Source: an uncultured SAR86 cluster bacterium (GTDB lineage: Bacteria; Pseudomonadota; Gammaproteobacteria; Magnimaribacterales; D2472). Taken from it: a DNA stretch of 43,735 nt. The stretch lies in the NCBI GenBank assembly GCA_905478015.1, contig CAJQGY010000028.1, forward strand, positions 1-43,735, in the 5' to 3' direction. Positions 11,062-42,283 of this stretch are shown piece by piece; the stretch's first letter is position 1, and each line of letters begins with the position of its first letter. The position numbers were made by a program, and so were the translations under genes. The notes beneath the pieces were generated by a model. It was not told where the DNA came from and ran no database searches. It saw only the letters and a program-made list of their open reading frames with translations.

Positions 11062-11091
11062 AAAAAGGATGGCTTAGCCATCCTTTTTTTT
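11062..11091 (+). terminator. rho-independent terminator after the TonB receptor
   Basis: The hairpin is GGATGGC, a TTA loop and GCCATCC, with an A-run before it and a run of T after it (11083-11091). Flanking A/T bases extend the stem. It lies about 40 bases after the receptor stop and separates that gene from the peroxiredoxin. Confidence 0.93.
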
Positions 11092-23244: not shown

Positions 23245-24288
23245 TTACATGCTTTTAATCCACTTATTTATGAGTGCCACACCCTCATCATGATTAAGAA
23301 ATCTTCCAGATTCTGGCATCATTATACCTGGGTCTCGTGATTGCATTCTGAAAGGCATTATTGACTCTTCTGGAGCACCAGGTTTAATGGAAAATTTAAA
23401 GTTATTGCTCGCCCTTCCAGCTGCAACTGGCTTTTTATATATTCCTATATGTTCTCTTCTTTCTTCAGTAAAGTTGAGATAAAGTCCTGTAGTGTCTGCA
23501 GAGCCTCCAGGTATATGGCAATGGCCGCAATTTATATCAAGATATGCTCTAGCTCTTGAATCAAGATCAATCGACGCATTAGACCAGTCAGGCATTGTCT
23601 TGTAGTTTATTTCAGAATCTATCCAGCCCTCATCCGACCATCTATCAAGCTGATTCATACTAATATTTTCATACTTATAATTTTGGTTTAGATTTCTAGC
23701 CTTCGGACCTATGGGTTTAATTTCATTGCCGGATTGATGACATTCCTTGCATTGATTGATGTTTGGAACTCTGTAACGGACTTTTTTAATATCCCCACTC
23801 TCAGCTACAAATGAAGTGTTGATAGTTTTCCCTGCAATATTTAAAAATGCCTCGCTTTGTTCCTTATTCCATACATAACTAATATTTCTCCAAGCCCCAC
23901 CTTTCTTTATCAACAAGCGAGTTTCAAGTAATTGTTTTTCTAGCTCGGAATCAGCAGCATCGTTTAGGTATGCAAATGTTTTAATTAGGGCCGATCCATC
24001 TGGAAAATCAAAAACAAGATCTTCATGATATTTAGCACTCTTACCCTCCGGAATATAAACAAATCTTAATTTATCTGCATAATCGGTAAACAAAGGGTTT
24101 ATAAGATCATATGGAAGGACGCCTTCTTGCGGGACTTGTAACTGCATATTCGAGAAGAAACCAAAATCAGAAAGCTTTTTTGGCATTTTGCTAGCCAAAA
24201 CAACAGAGTCATCTACCGATGCAATAATTTGACTTTGAACAGAGAGAAGGCATAGAAAGCAAAAAAATAATTCTTTATTAATTTTCAC
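23245..24288 (-). CDS. exported protein with two CxxCH haem motifs, HNE_0200/SO_2930-like family
   Basis: This 347-residue protein begins with a GTG codon (24286-24288) that overlaps the end of the beta-helix gene by 11 bases. It has a signal peptide (KELFFCFLCLLSVQSQIIAS), so it should be periplasmic. Two haem-c attachment motifs are visible: CKECH at 180-184 and CGHCH at 254-258. A late PGIMMPESG could give a methionine ligand. Family style and neighbour match the conserved exported family (TIGR03806) that recurs as a pair with a beta-helix protein (TIGR03805), function unknown. A periplasmic dihaem electron-transfer role is inferred from the motifs. Confidence 0.8.
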   Translation of the reverse strand: MKINKELFFCFLCLLSVQSQIIASVDDSVVLASKMPKKLSDFGFFSNMQLQVPQEGVLPYDLINPLFTDYADKLRFVYIPEGKSAKYHEDLVFDFPDGSALIKTFAYLNDAADSELEKQLLETRLLIKKGGAWRNISYVWNKEQSEAFLNIAGKTINTSFVAESGDIKKVRYRVPNINQCKECHQSGNEIKPIGPKARNLNQNYKYENISMNQLDRWSDEGWIDSEINYKTMPDWSNASIDLDSRARAYLDINCGHCHIPGGSADTTGLYLNFTEERREHIGIYKKPVAAGRASNNFKFSIKPGAPEESIMPFRMQSRDPGIMMPESGRFLNHDEGVALINKWIKSM

Positions 24289-25504
24289 TTAGCACAACTC
24301 TCTCAAGAGGTGAAATATCTCCAACAAACCAGTCATAATCTCGAATAACAGGGTTTAAAAACGGGAGCATATACTTTATTGGACTAATACTAAGAAAGGT
24401 AGCATCTCCATTATTACCTAAAATTATTGTCTCTTTTTTAACCTTGGAAGATAAAATCTTGGATATTGGAACAACTCCATCCCAAAAGATATCTGGCATA
24501 TCTCCTTCAGATAATTCATATAAAATTTTTGCAAGTTCTCCAGTTTCCAGATCGGGATTATGCCCGGAGATACCAAATTTATTATTGTGAATCTGTATTC
24601 TGGAAGGGTGGGGATTATATTGCTCATCGTCTGTTTCATATGAATATGTGACCACTGCAATATTTATAGTTTCATTGCCACCAATATTATTATTAAAAAT
24701 TTCAACATCAGAGTTCGCTTGAACAAGAACGCCAGTCCCTCTAGGAACTTCTCCGACGATATTGCCTTCAGGAGCAAAGTTATCAGTATTATTATTTACA
24801 ACATTATTATCAAAAACTCTAACATGATGGCCGCCTTGTTGAGGTAGGCTTGGTAAATCAAAAACAAGAATTCCACCAGTATTATTGGTAGCAGTATTGT
24901 TATAAACATCTGCATAGTAAGAATTTTCAATTTCAATACCTGCAACATTAAACTCAGCAGTACTATTTTTAACTATAATATTTTTAGACTGACCAACATA
25001 AATTCCAGCATCTGAAGCCCCAATTGCAACACACCCATCAATAAGAACATTTGTTGATTCAACTGGATAAAGTCCATACGCACCATTTAAAGAACTAGGC
25101 CCACCAGTCCATTCAGTCTTAACATTAATAAACTTAATATTATCAACACCTTTAGCTTTAATGGCATCACCTTTGGCATTCTGGATGGTGAATTTTTTTA
25201 AAGTAACATCATTAGATGTAACAAGCAGCCCCTGGGCACCACTTTGTTGATTAATAAATGAAAGTATCGTGCCATTTATGCTAGAGCCTATCAGGGATAT
25301 GCCATCAACATCTATAGATAAGGAATCTTCTAATTCATAATAGCCATCTGAAAGTTTTATTGTATCCCCAATGGATGCAAGTATTAAAGCTTCTTGGATC
25401 TCTGAATAAGGATCAGCACTTGGTGATATCTCAATTATATCAGCAGATAAGAGAGAGCTATTAAGAAGAAAGAAGCAAAGACTAACTTGCTTCAGGTATT
25501 TCAT
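24278..25504 (-). CDS. secreted parallel beta-helix repeat protein
   Basis: This 408-residue protein (ATG 25504; a TTG codon lies one position earlier) has a signal peptide ending near LLSA. Most of the mature protein is right-handed beta-helix repeats of about 22 residues. Asn/Val ladders such as GVDNIKFINVKTEW, STNVLIDGCVAIGA, SKNIIVKNSTAEFN and NSYYADVYNNTATNNTGGIL show this. The family (TIGR03805-like) resembles NosD and pectate-lyase folds but has no visible lyase site. It overlaps the diiron gene by 23 bases upstream and the dihaem gene by 11 bases downstream, so three genes are coupled. Confidence 0.85.
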   Translation of the reverse strand: MKYLKQVSLCFFLLNSSLLSADIIEISPSADPYSEIQEALILASIGDTIKLSDGYYELEDSLSIDVDGISLIGSSINGTILSFINQQSGAQGLLVTSNDVTLKKFTIQNAKGDAIKAKGVDNIKFINVKTEWTGGPSSLNGAYGLYPVESTNVLIDGCVAIGASDAGIYVGQSKNIIVKNSTAEFNVAGIEIENSYYADVYNNTATNNTGGILVFDLPSLPQQGGHHVRVFDNNVVNNNTDNFAPEGNIVGEVPRGTGVLVQANSDVEIFNNNIGGNETINIAVVTYSYETDDEQYNPHPSRIQIHNNKFGISGHNPDLETGELAKILYELSEGDMPDIFWDGVVPISKILSSKVKKETIILGNNGDATFLSISPIKYMLPFLNPVIRDYDWFVGDISPLERVVLSEN

Positions 25505-26588
25505 CAAACTTTTCTAGAGGTTTATTTAATTCAGCCCAGTCACATTCAAAATCATCAGGCGCATGCTCATACTCAAGCAATCCTAACGCTTCAAATTTTG
25601 GTCTAATTTCATCAGTCAAAAGACCAATTCTTGAAAGATTAGGTATTACCCTTGAGAACAAGAAGTTTCTAAACATTTCAAAAGATGATGTTTGCATTTG
25701 AAAATCTCTTGCTTCTTCTGCAGTCATTTTGAGGTATTTCTGTTCAGCCTTTGTATTGATTAGTCTTTCTCTAGAAATAACACATGCTTCGTATGCAAAT
25801 TCAGCCCTATCTTGTATTTCTTCAGGACTTAAAGTTTTAACGAAATCTTCAAGATAGTTAATACCAAAAGTTACATGTCTTGCCTCGTCCCTAATAACAT
25901 AATGTAATAACTGCTTTAAAAGTGGATCTTTTGTAATACTTTTCAGCATCTGAAAAGCTGCAAGAGCTAAACCTTCAATAATAATTTGCATACCTATAAA
26001 TTTTAGATCCCATCTTTCATCCGTTAGAATCTTATCCAATAATAATTTTAATGATGGGTTGATAGGGTAGTGAATACCAATCTTATCTTGCAGATATTTA
26101 TTGAAAACCTCAACATGTCTTGCTTCATCAAATGTTTGAGATGCTGCATAAAGTTTTGCATTGTAAGTTGGAGCACAGCTAGCTAGTTGAGAGGCAACTA
26201 GAAGAGCTCCTTGCTCACCATGAAGAAATTGACTTAATAGTTCAGCAGTTGTGTGCCTATCAAAATCGATTTTTTCTTGATCTGATAAAGCCTCGTAAGC
26301 TGCTAATGTCTCATGTGGTAATTGCTCATCAGGATCAACAAGCTTTTCATCAGCAGGGTGATTATAGTCCCATTGTAAATCTATAGAACCGTTCCAATTT
26401 AACTCTTTACCAAGTTCATATAATTTTTTAATCCTGTTGTCAGCAACTGTATAATCCCAATTATAGGCACCAGTTAGCGGTGTTTTGAATATTTCCACTA
26501 CATCTTCTACATGAGATGGCTTTATATCTAACTCATCATCAAAGTATAGTAAATCTTTTGGTGGACCGTCCTGCTTATTAATTTTCAT
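25482..26588 (-). CDS. cytosolic ferritin-like diiron protein
   Basis: This 368-residue protein has no signal peptide. Its four-helix core carries the full diiron carboxylate set: E125 in HGEQGA, E155 and H158 in DEARHVEVF, E205 in IIIEGLAL, and E235 and H238 in DEARHVTFG. Two ExxH motifs plus two single glutamates are the signature of ribonucleotide-reductase-R2-like and AurF-like oxygenases, rather than storage ferritins. The substrate is unknown; lipid desaturation, N-oxygenation or hydroxylation are all possible. AGAGG precedes the ATG. A perfect 23-bp palindrome lies 22 bases upstream. It is first in an operon with the secreted beta-helix and dihaem proteins, an odd mix of compartments. 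Confidence 0.85.
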   Translation of the reverse strand: MKINKQDGPPKDLLYFDDELDIKPSHVEDVVEIFKTPLTGAYNWDYTVADNRIKKLYELGKELNWNGSIDLQWDYNHPADEKLVDPDEQLPHETLAAYEALSDQEKIDFDRHTTAELLSQFLHGEQGALLVASQLASCAPTYNAKLYAASQTFDEARHVEVFNKYLQDKIGIHYPINPSLKLLLDKILTDERWDLKFIGMQIIIEGLALAAFQMLKSITKDPLLKQLLHYVIRDEARHVTFGINYLEDFVKTLSPEEIQDRAEFAYEACVISRERLINTKAEQKYLKMTAEEARDFQMQTSSFEMFRNFLFSRVIPNLSRIGLLTDEIRPKFEALGLLEYEHAPDDFECDWAELNKPLEKFDEIPEAS

Positions 26589-26609
26589 GAAACCTCTGCT
26601 ATGTAAATC

Positions 26610-26632
26610 TAATGTTTACAGTGTAAACATTA
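26610..26632. promoter_or_regulatory. perfect 23-bp palindromic operator candidate for the diiron operon
   Basis: The arms TAATGTTTACA (26610-26620) and TGTAAACATTA (26622-26632) are perfect inverted copies around a single central G. On the minus strand TATAAT overlaps the left edge of the site as read in that direction, so the palindrome sits at the -10/+1 region of the diiron gene promoter. Size and symmetry fit a TetR- or GntR-type repressor. I saw no second copy in the window. Confidence 0.7.
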
Positions 26633-26649
26633 TATCTATTCTATAACAG

Positions 26650-28419
26650 TTAGTCTGTTTTGAAAAGTTTTGTTAATTTTTCTAGCAATACCTCGCCAAG
26701 CTCTTCCGCCCTGTGAATGGTAATAGCATCTTTGTAGTACTTATTTACATCGTGACCTATACCAATAGCTTGAAGCTCTATATTTTTTGAAGACTCGACA
26801 TATTCAATGCTTTGTTTTAAATGGCTGTCCAGATAATTTTCAGAATTAGAAGAAAGAGTGCTGTCATCTACTGGAGCGCCATCAGATATAACGATGATAA
26901 TTTTTCTTTCTTCTTGGCGCTTCATTAATCTGCTATAAGACCAAAGCAAGGCCTCTCCATCTATATTTTCTTTAAGCAAACCCTCTCTTAACATTGCACC
27001 AAAGTATTTTCTTGATCTACGCCAACTGTTATCTGCACTTTTGTAAATAATATGCCTCAAATCATTTAAGCGACCAGGATTCGAAGGCTGCCCTAAATTT
27101 ATCCACTCTTCTTTTGAATCACCACCTTTCCAATTTTTTGTTGTAAAGCCTAAAACCTCTGTTTTAACAGCACACCTTTCAAAAGTACTGCTTATAATGT
27201 CTCCACAAATGGCAGCAAGACTTATAGACCTTCCTCTCATTGATCCGGAATTATCTATTAGTAAAGTTATAACAGTGTCTTTAAATTTATTTGTAGATTC
27301 TTGCTTATAGCTAAGAGGGTATCCGGGCTCAGCAACTACCCTATGGAGCCTAGAGGTATCCAACGTTCCCTCTTCAAGATCAAAATTCCAGCTTGTATTT
27401 TGTTGGGAAAGTAATAATCTTTGCAATCTATTTGCCAGCTTTCCTATTGTTGTTAAATGAGGTTTTATTAGATTATCAAGTTGAGAACGAAGTCTAATTG
27501 CTTCTTCTGATGATATTAGATCTCGAGCCTCAATTATTTCATCAAATTTATTTGTAAAAATTTTATAGTCCTTCTCATTTGAACTAATAAAATCTATGCC
27601 ATTAATATTGCTAAGCTCAATCTCTTCCTCGATAGAGCTTTCACTTGAAGAAACTGTTACTTCTTGTTGTAACTCATCTATATCCATATCTATTTCAAGA
27701 GTCTCTTCTGAATCAATATCACCATCATCATCTTCACTATTATTTTCTATTTGATCTTCATGATTGCTTTCATTTGATTGATTTTCACCTTCAACAATTT
27801 CATCAGACATCTCATTTTCATCTTTAACCTTTATAAGGCCAAGAGATTCTAAAAGCTTGATTGCAATAGAGGTAAAACTATCCTGATATTCGAGAGATTC
27901 TATTAATTTTTTTTGATATGCATCTAATTTATTTTTTCCGTGTTCTTCTTCTAGTTCACTAATAAGCTTTTTTGATTTCTGATCTAACTGATAGCCATTC
28001 GTTTGTTTAAGCCATAGATTGAAAACCATTGAGGGATTTTCTTGAAAATCATAAATATCATCTGCAATTGCATTGTAATACTCAGTAATATTCTTTTTTG
28101 AACCATAAAATTGATTACCTCCTAACATCTCCACTCTAGATATTTCCAACTCATTTATTACATCTTCGGCAATAGGGTTAATATTTAAGGCTTTGAGGTC
28201 TTTGTGAAAGCTATGCCAAAAAGCTTGAAAATCTGACTCAGCCCTCCAAGCATTGAGTTTTTTTGAAGACCTTGGAACAGGAGATATCTTTGCTTCATTA
28301 AGCTGCGGAGGTCTTGATGGCGAACCAATTTTTGTTTGAATATTTTTATTATTTGATATAGCTTTTAAAGAAGAAACTCCGGCTTCATGAAGCATTTCTC
28401 TCCTTTTATTCCATTTCAT
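26650..28419 (-). CDS. cobT: CobT-like cobaltochelatase subunit with VWA domain
   Basis: This 589-residue protein has the CobT layout: an N-terminal helical region (1-195) and a strongly acidic linker (about 200-268, rich in Asp, Glu and Ser). A C-terminal von Willebrand A domain carries the MIDAS motif DNSGS at 389-393. CobT forms a ring complex with the AAA+ protein CobS that drives cobalt insertion by CobN in aerobic B12 synthesis. Here cobS lies 8 bases upstream, but no cobN or other cob gene is in the window. The pair may serve B12 synthesis elsewhere in the genome or have another chelatase-like role. Confidence 0.88.
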
Positions 28420-28427
28420 ACTAAGGT

Positions 28428-29402
28428 TTAGTCAGGCTTTTTCTCTTGAATATCTTCACCAAAACATCTTTGAAAATATTCAGCAATAATTGGTTTTTCT
28501 GTGTCATCACATTTGTTAAAAAAACTTAATTTAAATGATGAATTTATATTTTTAAAAATAGTGAAATTTTCTGCCCAAGAAATAACTGTTCTTGGCGACA
28601 TTATTGTTGAAATATCTCCATTAATAAATCCATTTCTTGTGAGATTGGCCATTTGGATCATATTTTTGATCATGTCTTTATTTTTTTGAGATTTTAGTTT
28701 CTTAAGTTTTGAAGTGACAACGTTGAACTCTTGAGATGGGCTTAAGTAATTGAGTGATGAGAGAATATGCCATCTATCGAGCTGACCTTGATTGATCTGC
28801 TGAGTGCCATGATAAAGACCAGTTACGTCTCCGAGACCAATTGTATTAGTTGTTGCAAAGAGCCTAAAAGAAGGGTGAGGATTGATTACTTTATTCTGAT
28901 CTAACAATGTTAGCTTACCCTCTACTTCTAAAATTCTTTGAATGACAAACATAACATCTGGCCTGCCTGCATCATACTCATCAAAAACTAATGCAACAGG
29001 ATTCTGAATAGACCAAGGCAATAACCCCTCTTGAAATTCGGTAATCTGCTTGCCATCTTTGAGCTTGATTGCATCTTTACCTAATAAATCAATTCTACTT
29101 ATATGACTGTCAAGGTTTATCCTTACACAAGGCCAATTTAGCCTTGCTGCAATCTGTTCTATATGCGTAGATTTTCCTGTTCCGTGAAATCCCTGAATCA
29201 TCACCCTTCTGTTATGTTCGAATCCAGCAATAATGGATAAGGTGGTTTCTTGATCAAAAACATAACTATTGTCTATCTCAGGAACCCACTCTGTTTTTTC
29301 TTTGTAGCCCCTTACAATCAAATCAGATTTAATTTTAAATAACTCAGATACCTTAAAATCAGCATTGGGTTTTTGTGGAAGTTGTATATTAGAATTAGAC
29401 AT
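28428..29402 (-). CDS. cobS: CobS-like AAA+ ATPase
   Basis: This 324-residue AAA+ protein of the MoxR-related group has Walker [10 protein letters not shown] at 71-79 and Walker [11 protein letters not shown], with D141 and E142. The family block [20 protein letters not shown] is shared closely with alphaproteobacterial Cob[12 protein letters not shown] carries the sensor-1 region. It should hexamerise with the downstream CobT. The 110-base gap to the divergent tesB gene must hold the promoter. Missing cob neighbours make the metal and the chelatase partner uncertain. Confidence 0.9.
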
Positions 29403-39275: not shown

Positions 39276-41717
39276 ATGGTTAAATTAATTAAAATAATTT
39301 TTTACGCTTCATTATTGGCTTGCACTATTGCAATGTCTAGCGTAATTGCAATATATTTTTATCTCAAGCCTGACTTGCCTGAAATTTCATTAGTAGATGA
39401 GTCTCAGTTACAGCTCCCTCTAAAAATATTCACTCAAGATGAGTTGCTCATTGGAGAATATGGTGAAATAAAAAGAAGGCCAGTTTCTTTTAATGAAATA
39501 CCCAATGATTTGAAACATGCATTTTTGGCAGCAGAAGATGATAGTTTTTTTAGACATCAAGGTATCAGCTATACGGGCATTCTAAGATCTTTTATTAGAT
39601 GCATTGGTCCCAACGGTTGTCAAGGTGGAGGCGGAACCATTTCAATGCAAGTTGTGAGAGGTTATGTTTTAACAAGAGATCAAACAATTATTAGAAAATT
39701 AAAAGAAATATATCTTGCTTATGAGCTTGAAGGAAAAGCTTCAAAAGAGGAAATATTTGAACTTTATGTTAATAGAATTTTCTTAGGAAATCGTTCCTAC
39801 GGAATCCAAGCTGCCTCAAATACTTACTTTAACAAGTCCGTTGATGAATTAAGCCTATCAGAATCTGCAACTATTGCTGCTTTAGCTCAACTTCCTTCTG
39901 TCATCAACCCAATCAAAGCACCATTAAGAACAAAACAAAGACGTAATTGGATTCTATCAAGAATGTTAAAGCTTAATTTAATTTCTAATAGTCAATATAC
40001 CGAAGCTATAAATCAAGAAATAACAGTTGTAAAAAATATAGATCTATATGATGTTGATGCAAAATATTTATCTGAACTTGCACGACAGGAAGTTATCAAA
40101 AGGTTTGGCTTAAAAGCTTATAGAGAAGGGTGGAATGTATATACTACAATTAATTCATCTTATCAAAGAGCAGCGAACCAAAGCATGCAGAGACACCTCG
40201 CTGATTATGATAAAAGACATGGCTGGAGAGCAGCAGACAATTATAAAAATATTTTTAATGAGCAAGAGCTAGAACTTGCTGCACAAGGATTCTCAGATTT
40301 CTTAAAAGAAAATATGGAGCAAGCATCTTCTTTTAACAAAAATAATGACATTATTGGAAGCAAAGTTAATGATATATTTTCATCCTACCCATATTATGAA
40401 TCCCATACCAAAGGAATTGTTGTCGGAATATTTGATAGTAAAATTCTCTTCATAGATGAAAGCTTAGATATTCAAAGCATTAATTGGTCGTCACGATATA
40501 GTTGGGCTAGAAAACAAATAGATATAAATACTCGAGGCCCAATTCCAAACAATTTTCATGAATTTTTAAACCTTGGCGATTTTGTTTATTTTAAAAAAAT
40601 AGACAACTTATTATTTTTAGATCAAATACCTATTGCTGAATCTGCATTGATATCAACAGATCCAAATACAGGAGCCATTAGGGCTTATGTAGGCGGCTCA
40701 AATTTTAATAAAAGTAATTTTGATAGAGTGCGACTTTCTTATCCTCAGTCTGGCTCAAGTTTCAAGCCTTTTATCTTCGCATCAGCTCTCTCTAATCAAT
40801 ACAATCTTTCATCACTAATTAATGATGCTCCAATTGCATTTAAGGATGATAACCTCGAGAGTGTTTGGAGACCTCAAAATTACACGGGCAAATTTTATGG
40901 CTTAACTTCTTTAAGAAGCGCTCTTATAAGGTCAATAAACATTGTATCAATTAAGCTATTAAGAGAAGTTGGCATTCAGACCTCAAGCAATACGATTGAG
41001 AAATTTGGATTTGCCAAAGAAAGGCTGCCTAAAGACTTATCTTTGGCTCTTGGTTCGGGTAATTTCTCTCCAGCAGAAATGGTTAGAGCTTTTGGTGTAA
41101 TAGCTACTGAAGGACATATTACAGATTTATATTACATAAATAAAATTGAGGATAGGTTTGGTAATATTATTTTTTCCTCACAGCCAGCTTCACAAGAAGG
41201 CAGAGATTTGATTGCATTTCCATGGCTCAATACACTAGAGATGGATATTAAAAAACCATATTATCTTCTAGACCCTATAAAAAAATCCGAAAAAGTTATT
41301 GATGAAAGAGTTGTTTACTTAATAAAAGACACACTTAAAGACTTCATGAAAAATGGGACAGCCGGAAGAAAGTCAGCTTTTTTAAATCGAAATGATATTG
41401 GCGGCAAAACAGGCACTACCAATGATGCAATAAGCACCTGGTTTTCTGGATTCCATGATGATTTAGTTACAACAGTTTGGGTGGGTACTGATGATTTTAC
41501 ATCTCTTGGAGAAAATGAATATGGATCAACAATATCAATGCCTATATGGCTAGATTATATGTCTGTAGCCTTAGATGATTTAGAAATAAAACCAATAAAA
41601 ATTCCTTCAAGTCTCAGTTATGTCAAAGTTGACAGAACAACAGGCAAGATTGATAAATCTCAGAATGCAAAAAATACATATTTTGAATTATTTTTAGACG
41701 AAAATATTGAGGATTAA
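39276..41717 (+). CDS. ponA: penicillin-binding protein 1A
   Basis: This bifunctional peptidoglycan synthase has 813 residues from the ATG at 39276. I prefer that start to a TTG at 39243, because MVKLIKIIFYASL gives the standard short cytoplasmic tail and membrane anchor. The GT51 glycosyltransferase domain shows AAEDDSFFRHQG, GGGTISMQVVR and ELYVNRIFLGNRSYG. An OB-like insert follows. The transpeptidase domain has SGSSFKP (SxxK), RSINIV (SxN) and GGKTGTTND (KTG). It elongates and crosslinks glycan strands in the periplasm. It is divergent from aroK, and its stop overlaps the slmA stop (TTAA, 41714-41717). Confidence 0.96.
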   Translation: MVKLIKIIFYASLLACTIAMSSVIAIYFYLKPDLPEISLVDESQLQLPLKIFTQDELLIGEYGEIKRRPVSFNEIPNDLKHAFLAAEDDSFFRHQGISYTGILRSFIRCIGPNGCQGGGGTISMQVVRGYVLTRDQTIIRKLKEIYLAYELEGKASKEEIFELYVNRIFLGNRSYGIQAASNTYFNKSVDELSLSESATIAALAQLPSVINPIKAPLRTKQRRNWILSRMLKLNLISNSQYTEAINQEITVVKNIDLYDVDAKYLSELARQEVIKRFGLKAYREGWNVYTTINSSYQRAANQSMQRHLADYDKRHGWRAADNYKNIFNEQELELAAQGFSDFLKENMEQASSFNKNNDIIGSKVNDIFSSYPYYESHTKGIVVGIFDSKILFIDESLDIQSINWSSRYSWARKQIDINTRGPIPNNFHEFLNLGDFVYFKKIDNLLFLDQIPIAESALISTDPNTGAIRAYVGGSNFNKSNFDRVRLSYPQSGSSFKPFIFASALSNQYNLSSLINDAPIAFKDDNLESVWRPQNYTGKFYGLTSLRSALIRSINIVSIKLLREVGIQTSSNTIEKFGFAKERLPKDLSLALGSGNFSPAEMVRAFGVIATEGHITDLYYINKIEDRFGNIIFSSQPASQEGRDLIAFPWLNTLEMDIKKPYYLLDPIKKSEKVIDERVVYLIKDTLKDFMKNGTAGRKSAFLNRNDIGGKTGTTNDAISTWFSGFHDDLVTTVWVGTDDFTSLGENEYGSTISMPIWLDYMSVALDDLEIKPIKIPSSLSYVKVDRTTGKIDKSQNAKNTYFELFLDENIED

Positions 41718-42283
41718 GATTTAAATAAATTTACTGATAAGAGCTCCCAAGCATTATCAATATAGTTGCTTGGAGAATCTTTAAATCTTGATCTTATATA
41801 CCTAGAAACATTGCCTTCTAAATATGTAGTTATTAGTTGAGCAGATATGCCTGGTTGCGATATAAGTTTGTCACTATCTTCAGCAAGAATTTGTTTTATA
41901 GTCAATTCAAACCTTTCATAGAATTGATTCACAGAGTCAGATACATTTTTTTCAGAAGGAGACAACGCCTCTCTGGACAAAAGCCTAGCAAAGCCTTTAT
42001 TTTTTTCAACAAAGAGCATGAAAAATTTAAATATATTCATCACTTTCTCTTTAGAGCTTAAATCAGATTTTTTTAATTCTGAGCTTTTTAAAAAAATAGC
42101 TTCATCACAATAAGAAAAAAGCTCCGCATAGATAGATCTCTTGCTTGGAAAGTGCCTATAAAGAGCTGCTTCAGTTATGTTTGATTTTTTTGCCAATAAA
42201 GCAGTAGTAATTTTAGTAGATGAAGCTTCCTCAAGGAGCCCTGCTAATGATTGCAAAATAATGTTTTTGCGGTTTTTATCCAT
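41714..42283 (-). CDS. slmA: nucleoid occlusion factor SlmA (TetR family)
   Basis: This 189-residue TetR-type protein matches SlmA in its helix-turn-helix region (ILQSLAGLLEE, TTALLAKKSNITEAALYRHF, PSKRSIYAELF). It also matches in its C-terminal part (NQFYERFELTIKQIL, QLITTYLEGNVSRYIRSRFK). SlmA binds specific chromosomal sites and blocks FtsZ assembly over the nucleoid. Its start follows algC by one base (TAG at 42285-42287, then ATG at 42283), so the two are co-transcribed. In E. coli slmA sits by dut and coaBC; in Pseudomonas algC follows dut. A dut/coaBC neighbourhood beyond the right edge is therefore expected. Confidence 0.9.
   Translation of the reverse strand: MDKNRKNIILQSLAGLLEEASSTKITTALLAKKSNITEAALYRHFPSKRSIYAELFSYCDEAIFLKSSELKKSDLSSKEKVMNIFKFFMLFVEKNKGFARLLSREALSPSEKNVSDSVNQFYERFELTIKQILAEDSDKLISQPGISAQLITTYLEGNVSRYIRSRFKDSPSNYIDNAWELLSVNLFKS

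Follow-up and report, generated by a model that had tools for sequence, protein, structure and literature searches.

The perfect palindrome in front of a diiron operon of this uncultured SAR86 bacterium is, judging from sequence comparisons, very probably where a TetR-type repressor binds DNA, the gene of that repressor being located elsewhere in the genome. The palindrome lies in the 43,735-nucleotide stretch of DNA that was analysed as a whole (the window), and we are highly confident that it is the operator of a TetR-family protein on another contig of the same assembly (the C41 TetR), which would repress its own gene, the divergent RND efflux pump, TolC, rhodanese/PAN loci (with their GMC-oxidoreductase and patatin genes) and the diiron operon; the same protein would act on this AurF-like/beta-helix/diheme-cytochrome operon in many other SAR86 lineages. 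One switch appears to govern the TetR gene together with an efflux pump, the genes of small secreted proteins and an outer-membrane channel.

An earlier note on this DNA had described the site as a perfect 11+1+11 palindrome; its sequence (TAATGTTTACA-G-TGTAAACATTA, as the letters of the window read) and its coordinates are exact (Table 1). The site lies in the 61 bp that separate the cobT ORF end from the ATG of the AurF-like gene, both on the minus strand, at a distance of 21 bp from that ATG and 17 bp from the cobT ORF end. That it is very unlikely to have arisen by chance, as the note had also proposed, agrees both with its recurrence at other promoters and with simulation: 0.017 perfect 11+1+11 palindromes are expected per window (60 Markov-1 simulations, a rough figure that stems from one event in 60 runs) and two were observed, at 26610 and 11064. 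The second (11064-11086) has a T run behind it, as an ordinary intrinsic terminator-like hairpin does, and was dropped as a further site of interest. One alternative for the site at 26610 is that the palindrome arose by chance, or that it forms a hairpin or terminator in the RNA where cobT ends: it stands just past the cobT stop, and its minus strand has a folding energy of -15.7 kcal/mol (z -4.25), as such a palindrome would. Yet 26500-26800 holds no terminator-like site, and in natural variants just one of the halves is altered (as in ATGTTTACACTGCACACAT at TolC), which breaks the pairing while the DNA half-site is kept. This rules out the hairpin, and recurrence at unrelated genes, at five promoter regions of this genome and throughout the family, rules out chance. 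We give this alternative practically no credence.

Table 1. Features of the diiron locus and of the TetR-fold genes; positions are those of the window unless a contig is named, and scores are given against the cut-off of the model.
Feature	Position	Strand	Details
Proposed operator of the C41 TetR	26610..26632		19-bp core ATGTTTACA-S-TGTAAACAT at 26612-26630
Diiron operon promoter	26638..26666	minus	-35 TTTTCA 26666-26661, N17, -10 TAGAAT 26643-26638
AurF-like ferritin-fold diiron protein, operon gene 1	25482..26588	minus	368 aa; ATG at 26588; Pfam AurF PF11583, 43.8 bits vs 29.6
Parallel beta-helix protein, operon gene 2	24278..25507	minus	NCBIfam TIGR03805, 392.7 bits vs 141.5
SO2930-family diheme c-type cytochrome, operon gene 3	23245..24288	minus	NCBIfam TIGR03806, 380.6 bits vs 313.3
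CobT-like VWA protein, upstream	26650..28419	minus	ORF end at 26650; TIGR01651, 525.4 bits, under cut-off 759.05
slmA, nucleoid occlusion factor	41714-42283	minus	153 bits vs 120
TetR-family regulator (C41 TetR)	G000:C41:9537-10148		204 aa; TetR_N PF00440, 42.9 bits vs 24

The recurrence of the site is evident in the window's own assembly (1.07 Mb, 84.5% complete), which was scanned with the core ATGTTTACANTGTAAACAT, the reversed pattern serving as a control. This genome-wide scan, which the earlier note had suggested as a check, gave eight matches at up to two mismatches, distributed over five promoter regions, against none for the control; at up to three mismatches the counts were nine and three, and the three-mismatch match, C32:16112, is located within an ORF and was put down to chance. 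Of the eight sites, one belongs to the diiron operon, two to each of two paralogous rhodanese/PAN/patatin loci, two to the TetR/RND locus and one to TolC. Three matches are perfect, that in the window and two on contig C32. The two C32 sites and the two C35 sites lie between the rhodanese and PAN-domain genes of the paralogous loci, which also hold patatin and GMC-oxidoreductase genes; on contig C41, two sites lie between the TetR gene and an RND adaptor/permease pair divergent from it, and another lies upstream of the TolC-like gene. No annotated or long ORF contains any of the eight; an unannotated frame of 75 aa overlaps both C35 sites. As a separate observation, patatin phospholipases at PAN loci (L005:2864-3790 and L356:1897-2820) resemble the phospholipase effectors of CBASS: the PAN-locus patatins score 152.7 and 138.3 bits against the CBASS phospholipase effector model, below its cut-off of 200.

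Which protein would bind these sites? The regulator had been expected to be of TetR or GntR type, to be encoded away from the operon and to have a copy of the site in front of its own gene, and the C41 TetR fits on each count: it is the only TetR found beside SlmA, it is on another contig, and its divergent promoter contains two one-mismatch sites, 29 bp apart, toward the RND adaptor gene. Only these two genes exceed the TetR_N cut-off in the assembly (84.5% complete), and SlmA, the window's own TetR-fold gene, was ruled out as the regulator since no site is found near slmA in this assembly. For the ligand-binding C-terminal domain, the C41 TetR scores 26.6 bits against TetR_C_33, just below the cut-off of 26.8, and it is far under the NCBIfam cut-offs for AcrR (20.2 vs 271) and MtrR (26.7 vs 280). 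Its solved relatives by sequence, 3on2 and 3cjd, are named merely as transcriptional regulators, so that no inducer could be borrowed from them.

The coupling between the site and the TetR gene extends over the family. Matches to the C41 TetR are found in 96 of its 107 genomes, and in the 93 of these whose TetR upstream regions were read (G012, G015 and G043 being left out; sites counted at up to four mismatches) a site is present in every region, compared to 2/93 for the reversed control. The sites are paired, 27-33 bp apart, in 91 of the 93 regions (the exceptions are G048 and G076), and the site upstream of the gene is kept down to 31% protein identity (G010). Beyond the family, 11 genomes that belong to two further families of the order hold matches to the TetR, with 34-43% identity.

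At the diiron operon itself, conservation is complete within the genus and patchy further out. Loss of the site in close relatives had been named as the observation that would speak against it, and a perfect core is found in each of the genus's other two genomes. Among 87 ortholog upstream regions (97 genomes have some match to the diiron protein, the others mostly to a paralogue only), 47 have a site no more than 60 bp from the diiron start, 26 of them with a perfect core, and the reversed control gives 0/87. The site is present in the window's genus (3/3), g2 (1/1), g4 (14/20), g6 (3/4), g8 (9/30), g9 (15/15) and g10 (2/2), and missing from g3 (9/9), g5 (2/2), g7 (1/1), g8 (21/30), g4 (6/20) and g6 (1/4). 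The comparison of orthologous promoters is therefore favourable within the genus and mixed beyond it: 40 of the 87 diiron promoters are without a site, so TetR control of the diiron operon would be lineage-dependent. A 60%-identical diiron paralogue was ruled out as a further target, since none of 20 has a site within 300 bp. A tandem duplication of the diiron gene was also seen (G048:C1:1156616-1158610); its second copy matches only from residue 74 onward.

This patchiness bears on whether the diiron site belongs to another regulator, one that is of GntR type or that the incomplete assembly lacks, its likeness to the TetR sites then reflecting shared ancestry or convergence. Given an assembly that is 84.5% complete, a second regulator with the same site could have escaped detection, and the two kinds of site do not always travel together: 35 of the 40 genomes lacking a diiron site carry a TetR with its own site, and three genomes (G057, G058 and G099, 66-70% complete) have the diiron site and no TetR match. 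Against this, the TetR genes carry the site without exception in the regions read, no competing TetR was found in the window's assembly, and the diiron and TetR sites share the ATGT, CA, TG and AACAT positions and differ mainly at positions 5-7 and 14, bearing in mind that similarity to a single core was the basis on which both sets had been selected. We consider a separate owner of the diiron site very unlikely, and a site belonging to the C41 TetR remains the preferred reading.

How the C41 TetR might act at the diiron operon is suggested by the geometry of the promoter. The form kept in relatives, TTTTCA-N17-TAnAAT, is seen in 31 of the 41 site-bearing named loci; in the window, 7 bp separate its -10, TAGAAT, from the 19-bp core, which starts at about +1, and this spacing is 5-6 bp in 23 of the 41 loci (two have no recognised -10 and the rest have other spacings). 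The earlier note had placed the site at the -10, and here its reading needs to be shifted: the best-supported -10 is not under the operator, the core standing at about +1 instead, and a TATAAT that overlaps the edge of the palindrome in the window is not conserved in the other two genomes from this genus. The -35 is located inside the 3' coding end of cobT, and its conservation may therefore partly serve the protein. Because the core lies downstream of the -10, the operator would cover the expected transcription start, and repression by occlusion is the most likely mode of action at this operon: in the absence of inducer, a TetR dimer would sit on the core at the diiron start, downstream of TTTTCA-N17-TAGAAT, and block RNA polymerase. 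Activators rarely act downstream of the -10. It is nevertheless conceivable that the same TetR binds and activates, or co-regulates where the site covers a -35, rather than being a simple repressor; the TetR/RND half-sites TTGACA/TTTACA could be -35 hexamers themselves, meaning that geometry differs between targets, but the position of the diiron core past the -10, 5-6 bp away in those 23 loci, argues for repression, and we hold activation to be improbable.

The first product of the operon is the AurF-like protein. Its diiron ligand motifs (E, then EARH, twice) comprise E125, E155, H158, E205, E235 and H238, all invariant in 25 sequences, and its AlphaFold model is helical with a mean pLDDT of 79.8. 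The model's best matches are aldehyde-deformylating oxygenase, phenylacetyl-CoA monooxygenase, CmlI and R2 proteins (ferritin-like), at 11-20% identity and with none at E<=0.001 among the 50 matches listed; a PDB profile search with the diiron alignment gave three hits, a designed helix bundle being the best, followed by an R2-like oxidase and an aldehyde-deformylating oxygenase. The protein thus shares with AurF, CmlI, aldehyde-deformylating oxygenase and R2lox a passing Pfam AurF score and, as modelled, a resemblance of fold, but differs from them by the low identity of these matches and by falling under the NCBIfam cut-offs for the R2-like ligand-binding oxidase (34.7 vs 194) and the aldehyde oxygenase. 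The two genes behind it form a TIGR03805/TIGR03806 pair, a pair that recurs; as elsewhere, the SAR86 genes are adjacent and both products exceed their cut-offs, while the SAR86 pair differs in standing behind an AurF-like gene and under a predicted efflux-linked TetR control. The site goes with this pair: among 77 of the 80 named loci with close diiron relatives (three that end too soon were left out), it is present in 29 of the 35 loci having the pair and in 10 of the 42 without it (Fisher p 2.4e-7, which ignores relatedness), which points to the three-gene AurF-like/beta-helix/diheme-cytochrome operon as the regulated unit. Directly upstream of the operon, the window holds a CobT/AAA pair (26650-29402, minus strand), whose CobT falls short of the cobaltochelatase cut-off (525 vs 759).

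The other predicted targets also recur in the family. The TolC and PAN promoters were counted in 30 listed loci each, out of 92 genomes with TolC matches and 49 with PAN matches: a site is found in 27 of the TolC loci, which are the closest relatives, and missing from three, and it is found in 22 of the PAN loci, whose distant members may not be orthologues, and missing from eight; the reversed control is zero in both cases. Over all 107 genomes the pattern was counted 226 times forward and 25 times reversed.

The arrangement as such is not unprecedented: TetR repressors encoded beside RND pumps are known (the AcrR, TtgR, SmeT, MtrR and VexR type), and like them the C41 TetR has a TetR-type HTH, is encoded next to an RND adaptor/permease pair and has its operators in the shared promoter region, from which both autoregulation and pump control are predicted. 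What sets the SAR86 system apart from AcrR/MtrR-type repressors is a compact 9+1+9 operator, ATGTTTACA-N-TGTAAACAT, and a predicted target list that extends to TolC, the PAN/rhodanese loci and the diiron operon. The regulon is well supported and lineage-wide; in the titles and abstract openings consulted, no SAR86 regulon is described, the motif, the target list and the link to the diiron operon were not found, and no title concerns a TetR with the TGTTTACA palindrome.

Given that an RND pump and TolC are among the predicted targets, a response to toxic compounds is likely. The inducer would be a small hydrophobic compound that is also exported by the pump, probably a lipid, a sterol or an aromatic; upon binding it, the TetR would leave the DNA and the targets would switch on together. 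These inducer classes are a guess, made because SAR86 bacteria are described as rich in beta-oxidation and partly able to degrade steroids and aromatics (PMC11582366); the main text of that article makes no mention of TetR, efflux, regulat-, operator or GMC. In a broader and distinctly tentative model, which we think possible but would not favour, the regulon is a family-wide SAR86 stress response: a single TetR would link export through RND and TolC with detoxification, both periplasmic and oxidative. The AurF-like enzyme and the beta-helix/diheme-cytochrome pair would process the toxic lipids, sterols or aromatics that the pump expels, and PAN, rhodanese and CapV-like patatin proteins would guard the envelope. 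The site at any rate provides a defined candidate regulator, an operator and a target list: the role of the diiron/beta-helix/cytochrome operon becomes testable through its predicted tie to efflux, and the regulon could offer a readout of what SAR86 cells sense as toxic or signalling compounds.

Sites away from the main TetR and diiron genes of other genomes were inspected in 37 stretches, picked by hand and thus non-random: 18 are at TolC, 14 at PAN/rhodanese genes and one at a TetR paralogue (L324), while one (L346) precedes an ORF that has an RND-like gene behind it and three fall inside ORFs (L348, L352 and the second site of L353). The recurring predicted target set is TetR/RND, TolC and PAN/rhodanese, joined in several genera by the diiron operon. 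The L324 gene (1549-2174) is an extra TetR paralogue of genome G033 with a two-mismatch site upstream. Finally, several g9 genomes carry a related motif, ATGCTTACAGAGTAAACAT, or variants of it, at a distance of about 1.4 kb from the start of the TetR gene (L353:4294-4312, L061:672-690); in L353 this type of motif falls inside an ORF.
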